Shown here: positions 12,867-21,944 of the stretch, in pieces
How the letters are laid out: each line of letters starts with the position of its first letter
How positions within the stretch are numbered: the stretch's first letter is position 1
Virus record (IMG/VR): IMGVR_UViG_3300047379_000050
Location: 1 to 24,525 of that record
Source of the DNA: a virus
DNA length: 24,525 nucleotides
Strand: one strand, 5' to 3'
Position numbers and translations under genes: made by a program
Notes under the pieces: generated by a model
The model's input: only the letters and a program-made list of their open reading frames with translations
The model's database searches: none
Told to the model about the DNA's origin: nothing

Positions 12867-14199
12867 ACGGTGCCACTTTGATACTATCTTTCAATAGATG
12901 CAGAGTAGTCTGAAGTTCACTAACTTTATAGTTGTGAGTAACTCCTCCTATAAGATAGGTCCCCGAGTATACTTTGTCAAGTTCTGTTTTCTTTCTCTTA
13001 ACCTGCATTCTTGGAATCTGGACAGAAACAGCAGTACCAGCGAATAGATTCAAGTTTCCAGGTACAGTAATTTCCAATTGAATTGCTTCTAGAGATTTTT
13101 TTCTCAGAAAATTATATGCGGCAGTATCCAAATAACTATTCAAATTACGTGATCCTGGGACAGCACTTCCATCACTCTTAGCACTGTCCCATAGGTGCGT
13201 AGGAATTGCTCTATAGTGTACTCTCTTTGGGTTGTTAATTAGTTTCTTAATCTCTGGATTGCTAGTGTCAATGGGGAGTCTGCCGCCTTTCTCTAGTTTT
13301 GACATACGCTTAAATGTGTTCTCAATATTATAGTATCCTGTTTGTGCAGTTACTTTTTTATTCTTGGTTGGGAGAACAGATTCACCAAACGTACTAGGAT
13401 CAAGTCCAATAATATATCCCGACCATGTTCCCTGCCTCAGGTTTCTTATTGAGTTGAATGAATGTGGGAATGATAACTTACTAATTAGAAAATTATTCTT
13501 TGATGGGTTGTCTGATAATGCTTTTTGTCCGTAAACATATGTCGGTTTCTCTTGGTCTCTAGCATCCTCAATCATCTTATCAATTGTTTTGAAATGAAAA
13601 CCTAAAGCATTCTCATAGAAAACATATGCACCTTGAGGATTATCTGATGTGCCACCTGATCTAGTTGCTTTTGATGCAATATAGTTAATTGCATCGTATG
13701 GTCTCCAGTTAGGAGAAGTAAATCTCATCTTGTTTGCAGGTTCTGCATCAAACTTACCACCCTTTTTACCACCCAAAGTAGTAACAGTTTCAAGAATCTT
13801 TTTGACATGTACAGAAGCGTCTAAAGATTCAAATGCTCCAAAAGTATTAGTGACTTCATTATTAACAAATGCAGGACTACACAATTTCAAAACATATGAT
13901 TCTTTCTTCTCTGCTTTTACCCTAGCAGTAATCTCATAACATTGGAAGATATAGGTTATATTATAACCACCAGATTCTAGATCAATTCTCCAAAATTCAT
14001 TACCAATAAGTGTATTAATAAAGTCAGTAGCATCAAAGACTGCCACTTCAGCATACATCGTTGGACTACTAATACTTTCAGTAATCTTTATATTTGAAAT
14101 AAGTTCTACAAGATTTCGCGATCCATCCTTTCCAGTCCTAATTTTACCATTACCATCTAAGAGAAATGCTGCTAGAGCAGTTTGTCCTGACTTTTCCAT
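12862..14199 (-). CDS. gp27: Baseplate hub protein gp27
   Basis: 445 residues (T4 gp27 has 391). The N-terminus has the hub pattern: LVELISNIKITESISSPTMY followed by AEVAVFDATDFINTLIGNEF, then a strand-rich first tube-like domain. The middle has the hub-type helix and motif RPYDAINYIASKATRS then YVFYENALGFHF. Near the C-terminus, ITVPGNLNLFAGTAVSVQIP and YLIGGVTHNY are typical of gp27/gpD-family hubs (second tube-like domain). In T4 it forms the trimeric ring that joins the tail tube to gp5. It follows the 940-aa tail protein with a 1-bp overlap (TAATG). The nearby gp5 agrees with this role. Confidence 0.85.
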   Translation of the reverse strand: MEKSGQTALAAFLLDGNGKIRTGKDGSRNLVELISNIKITESISSPTMYAEVAVFDATDFINTLIGNEFWRIDLESGGYNITYIFQCYEITARVKAEKKESYVLKLCSPAFVNNEVTNTFGAFESLDASVHVKKILETVTTLGGKKGGKFDAEPANKMRFTSPNWRPYDAINYIASKATRSGGTSDNPQGAYVFYENALGFHFKTIDKMIEDARDQEKPTYVYGQKALSDNPSKNNFLISKLSFPHSFNSIRNLRQGTWSGYIIGLDPSTFGESVLPTKNKKVTAQTGYYNIENTFKRMSKLEKGGRLPIDTSNPEIKKLINNPKRVHYRAIPTHLWDSAKSDGSAVPGSRNLNSYLDTAAYNFLRKKSLEAIQLEITVPGNLNLFAGTAVSVQIPRMQVKRKKTELDKVYSGTYLIGGVTHNYKVSELQTTLHLLKDSIKVAPS

Positions 14200-17021
14200 T
14201 ATACTGATGCTCCAAATAATCCGAACGTTGGTAAAAATTCTAACAATTCAGGTTTGTTATTAGTTGGTACTACTACAGTAGCACCACCTCCACCTCCACC
14301 TGATGCAGAGGCACTTGATTTTGATGCCTGGGTACTAACAGCAGCAGCAACTTTTGTCATCGCTACCATCTTTTCTCCAGTTTTAACCTCTTCCTGATCT
14401 TCTGCCTTTACTTTAGCATCGGCAGTTGCGGTAGTAGTCTCTAAAAGACCGTCAGGATTGATTACCTTTCTAGTCTCCATGATAGCATCCTGAAGTGCTT
14501 GGAATGCTATATTCTTTTTTGCTTCTGGTGTTTGGGCAATTTGTGCTACTCCAGTGTCACCCCCAGTGTCATTATTAGGATTTCCCACTCCACTGAGTTT
14601 TCCAGAAGCAACATCAGCATTCATTTGAGACATAATGTCTGGGTTATCACTAACTAAAGGTGCTCCTCCTCTAGCAGCATCCAGAGCAGAAGCAACTTGT
14701 TCTACAGTGTGAGAAGATGCATTACCACCTCCATACATAGATCTCCCAGTAGCAGGATCAGGTAGAGATGCCCATTCTCCTGCCAATGCTTTCATAGCAC
14801 CAGTTCTATCATTATGCTCCTTAGATATATATCTCCAAGCATATGGTTGCTTATGCTTGATAAGTCCTATACCAATTTTATCCTGCATTGTCTTATCAAA
14901 CTTAGCACTCTTATCAATACCCATAGTATTGACAATTGCTTTCATTGTTCCAGGGATAACCTGATAACGACCAGCAGCAAATATACCATAATCCCCTTCT
15001 TGAGGATTAGACTTATTCATCAAAAATGACTGTCGTTCAATCAACTCACCGACACTCATATCAGTCAGTTTTTTCTTGACTATACTACTAGAATCGTGAG
15101 TACTTCCGACAATACGGTTACCCTTAGTACCTTGATTCATTGAGTTATATCCACCTTCACCAGATGCAATGAAATCTAGGAGTCCACCAGCAGCAAATTC
15201 GGGTGGTCTAGTTAGTGGTGCTTGAGCAAATAATCCACCAACATTAAAAGTGTATATGCTACTGCCGCCCTTAGTGTCTCCACCAGCAGAGTAACCCATC
15301 TCCCTCATCATCTCTTCTTGTTTCTTCCTTCTATTATATAACTTACCAGCAAAAGAGTCATTACTTACATTATCCAACTCACCTCTAGTTGCTTTCTGTG
15401 CTTGACCACTAAACCATGACATGGGGTTGAGTAGATTGAAATTGTTTTGAGTAGGTCCACCCTGATCAAAACTATTATACATGCCCCCCAGATTAAATCC
15501 GCCGCTATCTGCTTCCTTTATTCTACGAGTAGTAAGTTTAGGATTATTTTTTGTTGCAGGAGTATCAAATGGTACTATGAATGCACCACCTTGTTTCTTT
15601 TCTGCAACATATTCAGTTCCATGACCAATGAATGATGTTGATTTACCATCCAGAGATACTGGATAACCTGATTGGGGACCTTGAATCCAACCACCCATCG
15701 CTTTTTTGGGTAGTTTATTCTCTTTATCTGCCTGCTTTTCTTTCTTAGGAATTGAACCAGACACACTGGATGCAATTGCCTTCGCTGACATGTTCTTGAT
15801 AAACTTTGGTTTCCCTGCCTCCTCTGCCTGATCACCAATTACATAAGCACCATTAAACTTAGATTGAATTGCCTGAATAGACTTAGGCAGAATCTTACTA
15901 TAAGGTTCCTTATTGTCCTTATCGTAAGACCCATATTCAATCATTGCCCCCGCTTTTTGTGCAGATGCCACAGTAGCATCATGAACTGGTTTATATCTAT
16001 CATCCTGATTGGATGGAGGAACAAATACTGCTTGATACCCTAGTTCTTTAATTGCTGCGATTGCCGCCGCAACTCCTTCTGCTCCTTTCTGAGGATCAGC
16101 GAAATCCTTAGAACCAGCAGTAAGAATAACATGCTGCTTGTTACTTTGTTTACCTTCTGGAGTAGTGTTTGCACCATTGCCCTCGGTTTGTTGTGAATCT
16201 GCTATCGCACTTTCTTGATCATTACCATTATTATTAGCGAGCACAACGGCAGTAGTTCCAACAACAGCAGTAGTTGCCAGCAACGCCAATCCACCTCTGC
16301 CCCTCAATCGCATCTTCATCCCCTTCATCCCCTTCAGGAGATTCTTACGGAATGTTGTTAATACCCAGATGAAATCTTTAACTAACTTTGCTGGATTCTT
16401 TAACCATCTTAGACCTAATAGTAATGTTCCTAGTGATAAGAAGAATTGACCAAAACCTACCAGTTTTTCCCACCAAGTTGCCTCAGGGTCAAACATTGCA
16501 CCAAGACCATCCAGTATCCCTCCAACAGTACCTTTGAAGAAATTGAATATGAACGTTGCTACAGTGATAACACCATCAACAATATCTTCTAATTTTTTTA
16601 TATTATTTTCGTCTGCTAACCATTCCAAAATCCCCCTTACAACGAAGGTTTTAAATAACCATCCTCCTAGTTTAGCAAGACTCTCAAAAAATCCTGCTAC
16701 TACAGGAGCAATAAATTCGGTAAGACCACTTCCTTTCTTCTCATCATCTTTAGATACTCCCTGTAGATCACCAGAGTTTTCATTAATACCCTTAAAGAGA
16801 TCCGCTTCCATTGCTGCATTGACCTTTAGGTCATCAGCAATTTTTTGGAGAATAACTCCCATGCTATTGAGTGTTGCACCAAGTTGATTACTACCTTTTA
16901 CAACTTTTACAGAAATAATATTTGCTGATACAGTACCTTCAGAGTCATCTTTACTTACTTGACCCCTAGGACTTAAAAATTTATAAAAGTCTATCTTTGA
17001 TGTCTTACCAGACTTCTGCAT
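14199..17021 (-). CDS. Tape-measure-like tail protein with lambda-lysozyme-like (muralytic) domain
   Basis: 940 residues. Residues about 45-240 are hydrophobic helices clearly paralogous to the upstream 1018-aa protein (NQLGATLNSMG; RGILEWLADENNIKKLEDI at 129-147). A transmembrane-like segment lies near 245-262. Residues about 296-420 form an alpha/beta domain beginning HVILTAGSKDF. About 440-510 shows a tape-measure-type motif (SGYPVSLDG, FIGHGTEYVA, AFIVPFDTPA). Residues about 612-790 resemble lambda endolysin (GH104-like): LLDFIASGEGGYN with E622 as candidate catalytic residue, then FAAGRYQVIPGTM and GEWASLPDP. A Gly-rich linker and FLPTFGLFGASV end the protein. Likely function: tail tape measure or hub protein delivering local peptidoglycan cleavage. 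It has 1-bp overlaps with both neighbours. A CATAAATA lies 58 bp upstream, inside the neighbour's frame. Confidence 0.75.
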   Translation of the reverse strand: MQKSGKTSKIDFYKFLSPRGQVSKDDSEGTVSANIISVKVVKGSNQLGATLNSMGVILQKIADDLKVNAAMEADLFKGINENSGDLQGVSKDDEKKGSGLTEFIAPVVAGFFESLAKLGGWLFKTFVVRGILEWLADENNIKKLEDIVDGVITVATFIFNFFKGTVGGILDGLGAMFDPEATWWEKLVGFGQFFLSLGTLLLGLRWLKNPAKLVKDFIWVLTTFRKNLLKGMKGMKMRLRGRGGLALLATTAVVGTTAVVLANNNGNDQESAIADSQQTEGNGANTTPEGKQSNKQHVILTAGSKDFADPQKGAEGVAAAIAAIKELGYQAVFVPPSNQDDRYKPVHDATVASAQKAGAMIEYGSYDKDNKEPYSKILPKSIQAIQSKFNGAYVIGDQAEEAGKPKFIKNMSAKAIASSVSGSIPKKEKQADKENKLPKKAMGGWIQGPQSGYPVSLDGKSTSFIGHGTEYVAEKKQGGAFIVPFDTPATKNNPKLTTRRIKEADSGGFNLGGMYNSFDQGGPTQNNFNLLNPMSWFSGQAQKATRGELDNVSNDSFAGKLYNRRKKQEEMMREMGYSAGGDTKGGSSIYTFNVGGLFAQAPLTRPPEFAAGGLLDFIASGEGGYNSMNQGTKGNRIVGSTHDSSSIVKKKLTDMSVGELIERQSFLMNKSNPQEGDYGIFAAGRYQVIPGTMKAIVNTMGIDKSAKFDKTMQDKIGIGLIKHKQPYAWRYISKEHNDRTGAMKALAGEWASLPDPATGRSMYGGGNASSHTVEQVASALDAARGGAPLVSDNPDIMSQMNADVASGKLSGVGNPNNDTGGDTGVAQIAQTPEAKKNIAFQALQDAIMETRKVINPDGLLETTTATADAKVKAEDQEEVKTGEKMVAMTKVAAAVSTQASKSSASASGGGGGGATVVVPTNNKPELLEFLPTFGLFGASV

Positions 17022-20000
17022 TACTTAGTAGGATAAGATGAATTTGGGTCACGATATAGAACTATAGGTTCCCCACCAGTATTTATGATCTTGGTATTGG
17101 TGATTGGGAGTGTAATTGGTACTACAGTCTTACCCTTCTTATCTACTTCACTGTCTGCCTTATTTAATGCATTTGTTTTTGACATCGTTGCTACAGCAGG
17201 AGTGGCACCAGGTGCAGATGTAGAAGACATTTGTGGTGGAGGACTTGCTGATGCAGGAGCAAGACTACTCTTTTCATTACCATATAGTTGTCCACGAACA
17301 TCATTAATTGCAGAATCTAGCATACCAAAGATACGCGCCATCTTTTGCTCTTGAGTCTCTGCTGGTGCCTTTGATGCTTGATTATCACTATCTTGCGTAG
17401 TTGTACTATTACTAGTGTTGCCACCTGGAGTAGTATTAACACTTGTATCAGTACTTGTATCAGTACTATCGTCTGCTGTTACAGGACTAGTCTTAACATT
17501 TGCATTAGAAGAACCACTACCACTCAAGTTTTCAAAGTGCCATGCTTCAGTAGCGCCAGGTCTGTCCCTTCGTAAACCCCAAGCACTTTTACTCAGTGTC
17601 TTAAATCCAAAGGTTTCAGAATTATCCCACAACCACTTATATCCTGCATCAAAGTAGTTAAGGTCAGCAGCAAGACCAAATCCATGATTAGATGTTCCTG
17701 GAACTGCTGCTGTACCACGAGGTTTAGTATTATACATGTGCTGTTGATCAGCAAATGTTCTAAAGGTATCATTAATACCAATAGGATGACCCGCTTTCTT
17801 AGCAGCATCCAACATAGATTGAAACTGCTTTGCAACACTCTTATGCAACTTACCTTTTCCTGCTTGCCCCCAACCTGCATAACCTTTCACTCCTTGCATC
17901 TCGGAAGCAGGTACTTCTCCATTCTTATACTTACCTATTGGACCACCACCTGCGAAAGCAGGCAGTTCTCCACCAAGAGCAAATCCTGTCCATCCAGCAG
18001 CACGATAGTTAGACTTTGCGGGATTTGAAACAGGTGCTAAATCTTTTGGTTGTATTGGTTGTTCATTTTCGGTCTGCCACCTAGAAAGAGCACCAGTGTT
18101 TGTACTAGTAGACTTTAAACCACCACCCTTTGCAAGTTCTGGTGCCTTATCTTCATCCTTGTCTATTCCCTCAGGTTTTTGTCCTTCTTCATTGGTAAAC
18201 ATACCAATGAGTGCTTTAAGTGGACCAGCAGGAAGATTATCCTTTGCAAAGGTATTAACTTGGTCAATAAGACCTTTAGCACCAGGAATTGAACCTATCA
18301 TAGCATCTTCCATTTGTCTGATACCAGGAATCAGATCTCTAAACAAAGAGAATACGTCAAGTCCTAATGAAACATAGGGACCAGCAGCAAAACCAAATGC
18401 TCCAGATAAGTCAAACGCAGCAGATAATGCTTCAATACCAGCACCAACTACATCGCCATCAGTTAAGCGATCATATGCAAATAGTAAGTTAATAAGACCA
18501 CCAACAATTGGTAGTGCTTTACCACCAATTCTTTGAATAAGTGGTTTCGGTTCCAATAGAGAAAGACCTTTCTTCTGAAGGTACTCCTCCATCATTATAC
18601 CTGCACCAGAAGACATGACCTTGCCCATAACCTGTCCTGCCATTGCCTTGATGGGTTTCATCATTGGTTCAAAGAACTTACCCAAAGGTTCTACGATCTT
18701 TGCTGTCGCAAAATTCTTAACCCAATTTCCAGCACCTTTTAAACCATTATCTGCCCAAGCAACAGCATCTCCTGCCTTACTCTTAAGATTAGCACCAAGT
18801 GTTCTTGCCCTATCTCCGTATTTTTTTCCTATATCTAAACTCGTTTCCCATGCTTTTTTTGCCTTGTCAGAGAACCTAGCATAGATTTCTGCTGCGCTTC
18901 CACTCAATCCATACTTTTTACGTGCATCTTTTATTTGTTCTGCAATTACAGCGGCAGGTTTATCAATCAGAACACCTTTGAGATTCTTGGCATGATCACC
19001 CAAGAAATCTGCAAATTGCATCAGACTGCTTTTAATCCCCTCTGCTGCGGAGACTGACACATCCTCAAGAGTATTACCAAGTCTTCCCAGTAAACCTGCT
19101 GGTTTATTCTTCCTTGCTTGTTTTACTAATGCTTCTATACCTGCTTCAGTAAGTTCTTCGCCTGACTGTTTGGCAACTTTTCTTAATCTAGCATATTCTT
19201 CTGCTTGTTCAAGATTCTTAAAACCATGCCTCTTCTTAATATTTTCAAGAATTTCTGCTTTGGATCTTACATTATTAGTATTTGGAGTTGGTGTTGTTTT
19301 TGGTTTGGGATTATTTGGATCAGGTATATCATCAGACGACTGCAATGCATCAAACAATGTCATTGCGTCTTGGATAAGACTAAATGGATTTAGTAGATAC
19401 GATAATGCCTTTAGACCTATTATGCCTGTTAAAAGGGTTCCCACCCCTACAATCATATCCCATGCGCCACCTAGATTACCATTAGCAATCGCTTTAGCAC
19501 CGCCAAAGATCTTGGCAAGACCATCAAATATTGCGCCTACACTAAAAGTAACTAACTTATATACAAAATCCCCAACCATCTTAAGAGTATTGAAGATGTC
19601 TTCCATCTTCTTAAGATTTTTTTCATCAGAAAACCACTCAAGTATTCCTCTTGAGATTGCAGTTCTTGCTAACCAAGCAAACAAATTACCGAATGGTCCG
19701 AGAATTTTCTCTAACCATCCAAGAGGATTCTTTTTCTTCTTAATTTCATCCTCTAAACCGTCTTCTAATCCATCTTTACTTTCTGAACTTATCCCACCTT
19801 CTGCTTCTATCTCTGCTCTAGCATCTCTTCTGAGATCACTAAGTCTTTCTTGCTCTGCAAGTTGATCCCCTAAGAATGATGATCTATTGGATATTGTTTC
19901 AGAAATATCCATCATCACATAACCCATACCCTCCAGAGTCTTACCAATTTGATTGGCAGATGTAACTACAGAGTATACTGATTGTTTAACCGAGCTAGCA

Positions 20001-20077
20001 ACCTTTATCCCCCCAGATTCTTCACTAGAAACCGTAGTGGGGATCAACTTATGTGGTTTGATTTTGGATGCTAGCAT
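17021..20077 (-). CDS. Tape-measure-like tail protein with M15 (VanY-type) peptidase domain
   Basis: 1018 residues. The N-terminal part (about 40-240) is paralogous to the downstream 940-aa protein (NQIGKTLEGMG; RGILEWFSDEKNLKKMEDI at 143-161). The middle is helical and Lys/Ala-rich with hydrophobic segments (IVGGLINLLFAY region). From about residue 730 there is a zinc D,D-/L,D-carboxypeptidase-type domain of family M15: RTFADQQHMY, SNHGFGLAAD with H798 and D805, and EAWHFE with E844 and H847, matching SxHxxGxAxD...ExWH. After a Ser/Thr/Asn-rich linker the C-terminus returns to beta-like sequence. It probably cuts the peptide cross-links of host peptidoglycan during injection, complementing the lysozyme-like paralogue. 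It starts 5 bp after the gp51-like frame. Confidence 0.78.
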   Translation of the reverse strand: MLASKIKPHKLIPTTVSSEESGGIKVASSVKQSVYSVVTSANQIGKTLEGMGYVMMDISETISNRSSFLGDQLAEQERLSDLRRDARAEIEAEGGISSESKDGLEDGLEDEIKKKKNPLGWLEKILGPFGNLFAWLARTAISRGILEWFSDEKNLKKMEDIFNTLKMVGDFVYKLVTFSVGAIFDGLAKIFGGAKAIANGNLGGAWDMIVGVGTLLTGIIGLKALSYLLNPFSLIQDAMTLFDALQSSDDIPDPNNPKPKTTPTPNTNNVRSKAEILENIKKRHGFKNLEQAEEYARLRKVAKQSGEELTEAGIEALVKQARKNKPAGLLGRLGNTLEDVSVSAAEGIKSSLMQFADFLGDHAKNLKGVLIDKPAAVIAEQIKDARKKYGLSGSAAEIYARFSDKAKKAWETSLDIGKKYGDRARTLGANLKSKAGDAVAWADNGLKGAGNWVKNFATAKIVEPLGKFFEPMMKPIKAMAGQVMGKVMSSGAGIMMEEYLQKKGLSLLEPKPLIQRIGGKALPIVGGLINLLFAYDRLTDGDVVGAGIEALSAAFDLSGAFGFAAGPYVSLGLDVFSLFRDLIPGIRQMEDAMIGSIPGAKGLIDQVNTFAKDNLPAGPLKALIGMFTNEEGQKPEGIDKDEDKAPELAKGGGLKSTSTNTGALSRWQTENEQPIQPKDLAPVSNPAKSNYRAAGWTGFALGGELPAFAGGGPIGKYKNGEVPASEMQGVKGYAGWGQAGKGKLHKSVAKQFQSMLDAAKKAGHPIGINDTFRTFADQQHMYNTKPRGTAAVPGTSNHGFGLAADLNYFDAGYKWLWDNSETFGFKTLSKSAWGLRRDRPGATEAWHFENLSGSGSSNANVKTSPVTADDSTDTSTDTSVNTTPGGNTSNSTTTQDSDNQASKAPAETQEQKMARIFGMLDSAINDVRGQLYGNEKSSLAPASASPPPQMSSTSAPGATPAVATMSKTNALNKADSEVDKKGKTVVPITLPITNTKIINTGGEPIVLYRDPNSSYPTK

Positions 20078-20082
20078 TACGC

Positions 20083-20271
20083 TTACTTGTTGTTTCTATC
20101 TTTGTACCTCTTCTCCTCTTCTTTCAAATGGTTGATCAAGAGGTTAACATAAACATCTTTTTCCCATGGCATAATATTATCCAAATATTCAGGGTTCCAC
20201 TTATGATGGTGAATCAAAGCGAAATTAGTCTCATAATAAGTTTGAAGACTTGTATGGAGAAGGACTAGGCG
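20083..20271 (-). CDS. gp51: gp51-like domain in the -1 frame, probably made as a gp26-gp51 fusion
   Basis: An open frame of 62 codons follows the slippery site near the end of gp26 and stops at 20083-20085, 5 bp before the next gene. It has no ATG until late (IMPWEK). It reads RLVLLHTSLQTYYETNFALI, then HHHKWNPEYLDNIMPWEKDV and a charged C-terminal helix: clean, protein-like sequence. T4 gene 51 (hub assembly factor) also follows gene 26 directly. A -1 slip would give a 298-aa fusion (gp26 residues 1-236 plus 62), the same logic as lambda gpG/gpGT tail chaperones. A TTG within FALIHHH is a weaker independent start. The gp51 name is based on position and general resemblance. Confidence 0.65.
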   Translation of the reverse strand, partial: RLVLLHTSLQTYYETNFALIHHHKWNPEYLDNIMPWEKDVYVNLLINHLKEEEKRYKDRNNK

Positions 20272-20978
20272 AAAAAACTTGCTAAACCCTCAAGTTGGAG
20301 AGTCTGTTTTTTCTTAGTCTTAGGATTAGTAAATTTAATGTCGTGAGATAATTTAGGCATTGTTTCAAAAAACTTTTGAATTTCTTGAAACTGTGTAGTA
20401 TTCAATTGATCAAGGAACTCAATCAATTCTTCCTTTGAAGACTCTTTCGCTTCATATACTTCCTCACCTTCAACAATTTGAAGAATGCAATCTGTAGTCA
20501 ATTCAAATAGACTTTCTACAGTAGAATTGGTCTCAAAGTTATTTTTAACAAACATATCCATACTAGGATATTTCATAACCATTGAAATTTTATTATCCAA
20601 CTTCAAGATGTTTGTATGCTCAGGTTCAAATTTCACTTCAATCTCACTAAGATCAACTGTTACCTTAACCTGAGTCTCATTATCATCGGGTGAAGTTACC
20701 ATAAGATCAACAGTTTCACCTACAGACTTTGCACGAATGTTCAGGAAAATATATTCAAAGTCAAAAGTGGCAAGTCCTTTGATATCTGTATCAGATAGAT
20801 TAGTGCAGTTAAGCAGTAAAGTCTGTACAGTATCAACCATTTGTGCTTGATCTTCTGTTTCCATTGCTAACAATAGCAATTTCTCTTCTTTTACCAGAAA
20901 TGGGCGATATTTAATTCTTTTCCCGTCAGAAGGTAGTTTCAATTCATAACGAGGAACATTTAACTTAGGTAATGGCAT
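20265..20978 (-). CDS. gp26: Baseplate hub assembly protein gp26
   Basis: 237 residues (T4 gp26 has 208). It opens MPLPKLNVPRYELKLPSDGK, then YRPFLVKEEKLLLLAMET, the N-terminal pattern of the T4 baseplate/hub assembly family. This is followed by a helical and beta core (FDFEYIFLNIRAKSVGE), an acidic middle and a C-terminal helix FQEIQKFFETMPKL ending in KKKQTLQLEGLASFFA. In T4 gp26 helps assemble the hub and is related in role to tail assembly chaperones. It lies 24 bp after gp54 and is followed by the gp51-like frame through a -1 slippery site. A GCTAAATA element just upstream may be its late promoter. Confidence 0.82.
   Translation of the reverse strand: MPLPKLNVPRYELKLPSDGKRIKYRPFLVKEEKLLLLAMETEDQAQMVDTVQTLLLNCTNLSDTDIKGLATFDFEYIFLNIRAKSVGETVDLMVTSPDDNETQVKVTVDLSEIEVKFEPEHTNILKLDNKISMVMKYPSMDMFVKNNFETNSTVESLFELTTDCILQIVEGEEVYEAKESSKEELIEFLDQLNTTQFQEIQKFFETMPKLSHDIKFTNPKTKKKQTLQLEGLASFFA
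20271..20277 (-). promoter_or_regulatory. Candidate -1 programmed frameshift site (T TTT TTC)
   Basis: The heptamer TTTTTTC lies in the correct X XXY YYZ phase of gp26 (codons AGT TTT TTC), one sense codon (GCC) before the TAG stop. Nine bases upstream is GAGGG (20287-20291), placed like the Shine-Dalgarno stimulator of the dnaX frameshift. No strong downstream hairpin was seen by eye. Confidence 0.65.
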
Positions 20979-20999: not shown

Positions 21000-21007
21000 T
21001 ATTTAGC
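21000..21007 (-). promoter_or_regulatory. Possible variant late promoter (GCTAAATA) for gp26
   Basis: GCTAAATA on the minus strand, ending 21 bp before the gp26 ATG at 20978 and overlapping the gp54 stop. Octamer and distance match those before gp5. Confidence 0.35.
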
Positions 21008-21944
21008 GGTTCAGAGTTGGACCAAAGAAGTTCAAAGGTTCTGTCCCTGGAGGTTGGTTAAAGACAGCAGCGGAAAAATTATAGTTGCCAACTCTTGACG
21101 CTGCAGAGAAATCAAAGTTATTTCCAAATAACTCTGTATAGTTACCATCAAAATTTTGAAAGAATTTAGCAGCGTCTTTACCAAGACTATCTAGATACTC
21201 TTTTTCTGGACTCTTCTTATCTTGATTCTTAGTTGACATGTTAACATTTCTATTGTTTGGATAGAATCTGAAGTTTCTATATTGGAATCCAACATTAAAT
21301 GTAGTGTAGTTTGCTTGCCCTGATTGCATTTCTACTTGTCCCAAATTGTATGGGAACACATCTGCCAAGCACCAAACACCTGTAATATCATTCTCGTAAT
21401 AGAACCCTCTCTTACTATCTGTATTGCGACCAGTCCTTTGCTCTGGAATAAGATCGTCTTCTGTAAAGAATCTCTTCTTACCGCCACCCCTTTCCATCTT
21501 ATAAATCTTCATCGTACATGTGTAATTGTCTAAGAGATCCACATGTTGAGTAGTATCATTCATGATCAAATTTATCCACCTATCAAAAAAGGTATAGGTT
21601 TGCATTGATCTGGGCATGATGAATGAGACACTTATCTCACTATGACTCTGACCAGTAGCATACTTATAAGCAGAACCAATATTATTTACAGTTGCGGTTG
21701 TCAAGTTCCTACTAGGAGATGAAACACTAGATGCATAGTGATTCAATAGAGTTGCTAGTCTATCAGAGTTTCTACCATAAGGAATCAGAGCATTTCCATA
21801 CATCTCCTGGAGTACTCTAGGTTGCCCAAACTCAACTCCATAAAGATTATTAAGAGAAGGTGCATCCTTGTTACTCTTAATAAGTGATTGAAACTGTGTA
21901 AAAGAGTTATCACTAAAGCGACTTTCGTTGAATCTAATTGACAT
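21003..21944 (-). CDS. gp54: Baseplate tail tube initiator gp54
   Basis: 313 residues (T4 gp54 has 320). The central part reads like a tail-tube-family protein: ALIPYGRNSDRLATLLNHYA, then SSPSRNLTTATVNNIGSAYK, SEISVSFIMPRSMQTYTFFD and RWINLIMN. Later VWCLADVFPYNLGQVEMQSG and NYTTFNVGFQYRNFRFY follow the tube 'outer strand' pattern. The N- and C-termini are Phe/Asn-rich. It caps the hub so that the gp19 tube can grow. It overlaps gp4 by 1 bp (TAATG). Assignment to gp54 rather than another tube-like protein is by motif reading plus length. Confidence 0.75.
   Translation of the reverse strand: MSIRFNESRFSDNSFTQFQSLIKSNKDAPSLNNLYGVEFGQPRVLQEMYGNALIPYGRNSDRLATLLNHYASSVSSPSRNLTTATVNNIGSAYKYATGQSHSEISVSFIMPRSMQTYTFFDRWINLIMNDTTQHVDLLDNYTCTMKIYKMERGGGKKRFFTEDDLIPEQRTGRNTDSKRGFYYENDITGVWCLADVFPYNLGQVEMQSGQANYTTFNVGFQYRNFRFYPNNRNVNMSTKNQDKKSPEKEYLDSLGKDAAKFFQNFDGNYTELFGNNFDFSAASRVGNYNFSAAVFNQPPGTEPLNFFGPTLNR

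Follow-up and report, generated by a model that had tools for sequence, protein, structure and literature searches.

How does a T4-like cyanophage express a conserved protein domain that follows gene 26 in another reading frame and has no start codon of its own? The question is raised by a stretch of 24,525 nucleotides (nt) that makes up positions 1 to 24,525 of IMG/VR virus record IMGVR_UViG_3300047379_000050, analyzed at its full length and referred to here as the window. All features of the locus lie on the minus strand of the window. The product of gene 26, gp26 (237 amino acids; 20265..20978), is read in the 0 frame and ends at a TAG stop codon at 20265-20267, and a gp51-like segment of 62 codons plus TAA (20083..20271) follows directly in the -1 frame. 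We conclude, with a probability of roughly 93%, that -1 ribosomal frameshifting at the heptamer T TTT TTC (20271..20277) would give two proteins from one gene: gp26 itself and a predicted product of 298 amino acids (20083..20978) that runs through the final FF dipeptide of gp26 and continues as RLVLL.... With the same confidence, we take gp26 and the -1 frame to be the tail assembly chaperone (TAC) gene of this phage, in which gp26 is the short form (TAC-N), the gp51-like segment is the C-terminal domain (TAC-C), and the frameshifted product is the long form (TAC-NC). The first-pass annotation of this DNA had proposed such a fusion, of the type made by genes G and GT of phage lambda, and comparative sequence evidence strongly supports the proposal, while the fold evidence is suggestive only.

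The end of gp26 is read as ..AGT TTT TTC GCC TAG, which places the heptamer in the X XXY YYZ phase and leaves a single codon (GCC) between TTTTTTC and the stop. A GAGGG, which is a Shine-Dalgarno (SD)-like element and a likely stimulator of slippage, lies 9 nt upstream of the heptamer at 20287..20291. Following a slip, the -1 frame would be read as CGC CTA GTC.. from 20271 to 20086 and would end at the TAA at 20083-20085, which is 5 bp before the ATG of the next gene at 20077. The heptamer, the GAGGG, and the 62-codon frame that ends just before the next gene had all been noticed in the first pass, and each is confirmed at these positions. Upstream, the -1 frame is closed by a TGA at 20290-20292. 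Its first start-like codons in the window, a TTG at 20217 and an ATG at 20172, both fall inside the conserved domain, and therefore no start yields the whole -1 domain. We also scanned the 13 larger coding sequences (CDSs) of the window, which comprise 6929 codons, for in-phase heptamers of this kind. The gp26 site is the only T6N heptamer among them, and eight A6N heptamers are spread over four other genes. The arrangement observed at the junction is far beyond chance.

Both parts of the putative fusion are homologous to the T4 gp26/gp51 family. The gp26 sequence matches PF12322 (E value, 2.5e-70) and phrog_150 (5.8e-83), and the -1 segment matches phrog_634, "baseplate hub assembly catalyst" (1.7e-27), over profile positions 56-117 of 121. 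The two-gene layout of T4 was not found at the window locus, where the C-terminal domain follows gp26 immediately and is in the -1 frame; this statement is limited to the locus, and no search for a second copy was made in the rest of the genome. A tblastn search of phage records found relatives of gp26 at 676 places in 676 records and relatives of the -1 segment at 526 places in 526 records, or one place per matched record. A 4.5-kb stretch around the junction is 99.8-100% identical to records of Synechococcus phage ACG-2014d (15 matches listed), which identifies the window as this marine phage. Identity reaches at least 99% in 48 records for this stretch and likewise in 48 phage records for the window gp26 alone. 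The RefSeq record of ACG-2014d (NC_062734.1), which is assigned to the family Kyanoviridae, annotates gp26 but no CDS between gp26 and the next gene, leaving the -1 segment unannotated. Since a single-base shift parts the two frames, gp26 and gp51 could in principle be one frame broken by a sequencing error or by gene decay. Such a break would have to recur in the 48 nearly identical gp26 records, and the same -1 relation is present in all 160 scored sequences described below and in named phages of several hosts. We regard this explanation as vanishingly improbable.

To examine the junction in relatives, we used the window and 160 viral loci from metagenomes that two gp26 queries had retrieved. 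One locus (L173) runs off its contig, which leaves 160 scored sequences, namely the window and 159 others; another (L001) is identical to the window over gp26, and both are counted. The heptamer was predicted to be conserved across the gp26-51 junctions of relatives, and this is borne out: the run of six T is present in 160/160, as TTTTTTC in 159 and as TTTTTTT in one (L155). The heptamer is separated from the gp26 stop by one codon in 159 sequences and by two codons in L175. Codon usage at the site was analyzed in 151 distinct CDSs. The base preceding the FF dipeptide is T in 151/151, across five amino acids (AGT in 75, TCT in 33, GCT in 27, GAT in 12, and AAT and GGT in 2 each). The first F codon is TTT in all 151 and the second is TTC in 150, where overall phenylalanine usage in those genes is 70% TTT and 30% TTC. 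Another conserved dipeptide of the same gene, FF203, serves as an internal control and is encoded by at least 10 versions of the heptamer, the commonest of which accounts for 39 of 150. When columns are ranked by excess codon conservation, F235 and F236 come second and third of the 127 scored, behind L3, which lies close to the start codon.

The site is a homopolymer run, and RNA polymerase could slip on its six T residues, generating mRNAs one base longer or shorter that would encode the fusion without ribosomal frameshifting. RNA polymerase slippage usually requires longer runs, and the run here is held at six T followed by C in 159/160 sequences rather than being lengthened. Its codon phase and the SD-like element at a fixed distance are also features of ribosomal slippage. 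Transcriptional slippage is highly improbable as the source of the fusion. Ribosomal slippage is further consistent with a wider set of 16 named loci, comprising all named relatives fetched among the tblastn matches, with T4 and the ACG-2014d record excluded. An in-phase T TTT TTN precedes the gp26 stop in 14/16 of these loci, and its last base is C in ten, T in phiM19 and C48C1, and G in phiM9 and P10VF. The named phages that carry the heptamer include those of Sinorhizobium, Agrobacterium, Aeromonas, Pseudomonas, Stenotrophomonas, and Vibrio.

The SD-like element coincides with residues 230-231 of gp26, a conserved Glu-Gly dipeptide. Glu codon 230 is GAG in 131/151 CDSs versus a background of 33%, and other conserved Glu columns range from 7 to 68%. 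Where this Glu is encoded by GAA, the following Gly codon is GGG in 17 of 20 cases versus a background of 9%. The element is thus maintained through the choice among synonymous codons, as either GAG GGN or GAA GGG. Pairing with the anti-SD sequence upstream of the heptamer averages -9.1 kcal/mol versus -2.1 in random stretches of the same genes, and a 9-nt sliding profile of this pairing has its lowest means in the windows that start 15 and 18 nt upstream. The dnaX gene of Escherichia coli is a case of SD-stimulated -1 frameshifting, with a slippery heptamer and an SD-like element about 10 nt upstream. The window likewise has an SD-like element upstream of its heptamer, at a distance of 9 nt.

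The -1 frame is open for 57-68 codons in 159/160 sequences, and in the remaining one (L127) it is cut by the contig end. A TAC-C profile, which was built from 39 of the 160 sequences on which it was scored, matches the -1 frame in 160/160, with a worst E value of 2e-16, and it matches 14 of the 16 named loci with an E value below 1e-3. In none of the 160 sequences does the stretch of -1 frame that runs from the upstream stop to the heptamer contain a start codon. Downstream of the gp26 stop, an ATG, GTG, or TTG occurs in this frame by position +35 in 144/160, and the other 16, including the window, have none of the three. In these 16 members, the ratio of nonsynonymous to synonymous changes (pN/pS) is 0.37 in the -1 frame versus 0.94 in the 0 frame and 1.93 in the +1 frame, as calculated over 117 of 120 non-independent pairs (identical pairs were dropped). 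Because the -1 frame is under selection in these startless members, the TAC-C domain of the window appears to be translated although it lacks its own start codon.

T4-type phages offer a natural control. T4 gp26 has 208 amino acids and matches PF12322 with an E value of 8.8e-64, and T4 gp51 has 249 amino acids and matches both PF12322 (3.9e-52) and phrog_634. T4 gp51 corresponds to the gp26 domain (PF12322) over residues 1-201 and to the -1 domain of the window over its last approximately 50 residues. When aligned along their length, nine T4-type gp51 proteins all have the C-terminal domain in the same frame as the rest. A profile made from 149 fused products matches these nine proteins with no gap at the junction (E value, 1.2e-17), where the gp26 part and the TAC-C part alone give 3.8e-8 and 3.7e-9, respectively. 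Because the fused profile aligns ungapped to T4-type gp51, we identify the short form as the counterpart of T4 gp26 and the predicted frameshift product as the counterpart of T4 gp51. T4 accordingly has a paralogous gene for each form, short and long. The first pass had described T4 genes 26 and 51 as separate and in this order. The genes are adjacent, but they are divergent (L081, 7803-9229), and T4 gp51 is a long in-frame fusion rather than a separate small domain. The divergent layout is also present in 7/8 other T4-type loci, and KP15 has gene 51 before gene 26 on the same strand.

In T4, the long form is thus its own in-frame gene and no slippery site closes gene 26, whereas the window has a -1 frame and a heptamer. 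Gene 26 does not finish with an in-phase T6N or A6N heptamer in any of the 12 T4-type sequences examined, which comprise T4, eight of 50 listed matches chosen for spread, and three of the six metagenomic loci matched by a T4 gp26 query (L099, L101, and L103); T4, L099, and L101 are nearly identical, so these are not 12 independent cases. The FF dipeptide is often retained at the end of T4-type gene 26, for example as GAG TTC TTT. Gene 26 of PSTRCR_127 has two in-phase heptamers, both of which are distant from its end. Within this sample, loci that have no second long-form gene carry the slippery site and those in which the long form has its own gene lack it, which amounts to a natural experiment.

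We compared the predicted folds of both parts with known structures. The AlphaFold2 (AF2) model of gp26 has a mean predicted local distance difference test (pLDDT) score of 86.6. When it was aligned to 725 chains with VIA-align, the top entries were 3fgx, 2ob9 (HK97 TAC), and 3klu (YqbN), with Z scores of 7.4-7.6, followed by entries at 5.6 and then 2.8. We take 3fgx and YqbN to be members of tail-chaperone-like families. The alignments to these three entries lie within residues 1-95 of the gp26 model, and that to HK97 2ob9 covers residues 1-86 (Z score, 7.6). Among the chains aligned, HK97 TAC and YqbN are the nearest to the N-terminal part of the window gp26 model, which suggests that tail assembly chaperones are the known proteins closest to this part. 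A profile search of PDB sequences returned only one marginal and unrelated match for each part (E values of 0.89 for gp26 and 0.25 for TAC-C). A Foldseek search of viral models with gp26 returned other gp26-like baseplate hub proteins, which adds no function. The TAC-C model (pLDDT, 77.1) has four predicted helices and had no significant match among viral models.

Several observations weigh against a frameshifted chaperone gene. The relatives share ancestry, and the counts above are of non-independent events. The Glu-Gly dipeptide at residues 230-231 is conserved, and because of this a GARGG is forced at that position. RNAalifold found no conserved downstream RNA structure in 92 aligned sequences (0.0), so that the downstream stem-loop of the E. 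coli dnaX type has no conserved counterpart here. The z scores of downstream minimum free energy (mean of -1.6 in 60 of the 151 sequences) were obtained with mononucleotide shuffles only, and we did not take them as evidence. We also dropped the openness of the -1 frame between the heptamer and the stop, since the codons there are NTA or NTG followed by Gnn or Ann and cannot be stops. The matches of the TAC-C profile to the -1 frame are weak in D531 (E value, 0.11) and in BUCT608 (0.033), the latter of which carries the heptamer. The VIA-align Z scores are below 8 and not decisive, and a Foldseek search of the PDB with the gp26 model gave no significant match (E value of 1.6 for 2ob9). A start codon combined with no slippery site was found in 0/160 sequences and in two of the 16 named loci, those of Vibrio phage D531 and Ackermannviridae phage BX-1, which are both distant, carry no T6 heptamer, and show a TAATG overlap. 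The -1 frame after gp26 lies at 2974-3900 of L091 in D531 and at 2992-3920 of L095 in BX-1.

Start codons in the relatives also count on this side. An ATG is present in the gp51 frame by position +35 in 133/160 sequences; it stands at +2, +5, or +8 in 116/160, where separate initiation is possible, and at +14 in 45/160. We therefore dropped the missing start codon as a general argument. The first-pass statement that the gp51 frame has no start codon is correct for the window and not for most relatives, and the absence predicted for relatives is limited to a minority: 27/160 sequences have no ATG by +35, and the window and L001 are among the 16 that have no ATG, GTG, or TTG.

These start codons would suit a gp51 that is made as a separate small protein, by termination and reinitiation just past the gp26 stop, for which the window would have to use a nonstandard start. 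Separate production would agree with records of S-SM1, P-SSM2, D482, DLP6, and others, in which gp51 is annotated as its own gene, and with the TAATG or TGATG overlaps of several distant phages. It leaves unexplained why T TTT TTC is invariant at synonymous positions, and in the 16 sequences without any of the three start codons the frame is still conserved. The anti-SD energy is -0.77 before ATG+5 (n=113) and -0.58 before ATG+14 (n=16) versus -2.76 at the gp26 start (n=160), and T4-type gp51 is the full fusion. We find it very unlikely that gp51 is a separate protein in place of a fusion. A separate start for TAC-C in addition to the frameshift is possible in most relatives of the 160-sequence set. 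One speculative scheme, which we think unlikely, is that most of the relatives examined use the same -1 frame twice, as the C terminus of TAC-NC and as a free TAC-C made by termination and reinitiation at an ATG 2-14 nt past the gp26 stop. The gene would then have three products, the third of which was lost in the window lineage, and T4 would have replaced recoding by gene duplication with an in-frame fusion.

For -1 frameshifting, the comparative sequences establish that the site and its phase are conserved, that an SD-like element precedes it, that the -1 frame evolves under purifying selection, and that T4-type phages carry a natural fusion, and we infer the occurrence of slippage, its rate, all binding functions, and assembly on the tape measure. 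Most ribosomes would terminate at the TAG and release TAC-N. Some would pause on T TTT TTC, aided by pairing of the GAGGG with the anti-SD sequence of 16S rRNA, and the tRNA-Phe in the P and A sites would slip back by one base, so that translation would continue into the 62-codon -1 frame and yield TAC-NC. The heptamer of the window, TTTTTTC, differs from that of lambda G/GT, which is GGGAAAG. In the lambda model, as outlined in a passage of PMC5009743, many gpG per gpGT are placed on the tape measure and T binds the tube protein. By analogy, many TAC-N and few TAC-NC may coat the tape measure protein of this phage, and TAC-C may recruit tail tube subunits.

A frameshifted TAC in T4-like phages is of a kind already described, and the ACG-2014d locus is not annotated as such. 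The 2022 abstract of Vladimirov, Gautam, and Davidson is said to report conservation of frameshifting in several groups of T4-like phages and the use of genes 26 and 51 in T4. A passage of the PRFect paper, citing Vladimirov et al. 2022, mentions some T4-like phages that have two TAC genes, a short one and a long fused one (PMC10885494), and a passage of the Adele paper, citing the same work, mentions polyT -1 signals in TAC-N genes of T4-like phages (PMC12846349). As cited there, these TACs resemble the window in their short and long forms and in their polyT sites. The link that the first pass drew between T4-type gp26/gp51 and the G/GT chaperone scheme is thus supported but has been published before (Vladimirov et al. 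2022, doi 10.1016/j.virol.2021.11.003, according to PMC10885494 and PMC12846349). Among the publications listed for cyanophages and TACs or frameshifting, none concerned this locus in cyanophages by its title and the start of its abstract, in a coverage that leaves out most subscription journals. A passage of Sullivan et al. 2010 describes cyanophage gp51 as about 20% of the length of others, with the first approximately 200 residues absent (PMC3037559). Frameshifting would explain this shortness, in that the first approximately 200 residues would come from gp26. It would also correct the habit, seen in the records viewed, of entering cyanophage gp51 as a short separate gene or of missing it, as in ACG-2014d.

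Directly upstream of gp26 is a gene of the tail tube family (21003..21944; phrog_45 "tail tube," E value of 4.6e-64). The gene directly downstream (17021..20077) encodes 1018 amino acids and is a candidate tape measure gene that includes a VanY/M15 peptidase domain (phrog_790, 4e-245; PF02557, 7.4e-10); its label in NC_062734.1 is endolysin. The tape measure family match of this protein is limited to its peptidase part. In other phages, weak tape measure matches were obtained for the large gene downstream of gp51 in D482 and for two of nine such genes that were scanned (phiM19 and DLP6), and the other seven of the nine have no such match. The 1018-amino-acid protein (17021-20077) and a 940-amino-acid protein (14199-17021), both on the minus strand, each match phrogs 790 and 1200. 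These two may rather be virion proteins, the first perhaps a tape measure protein with a VanY/M15 domain.
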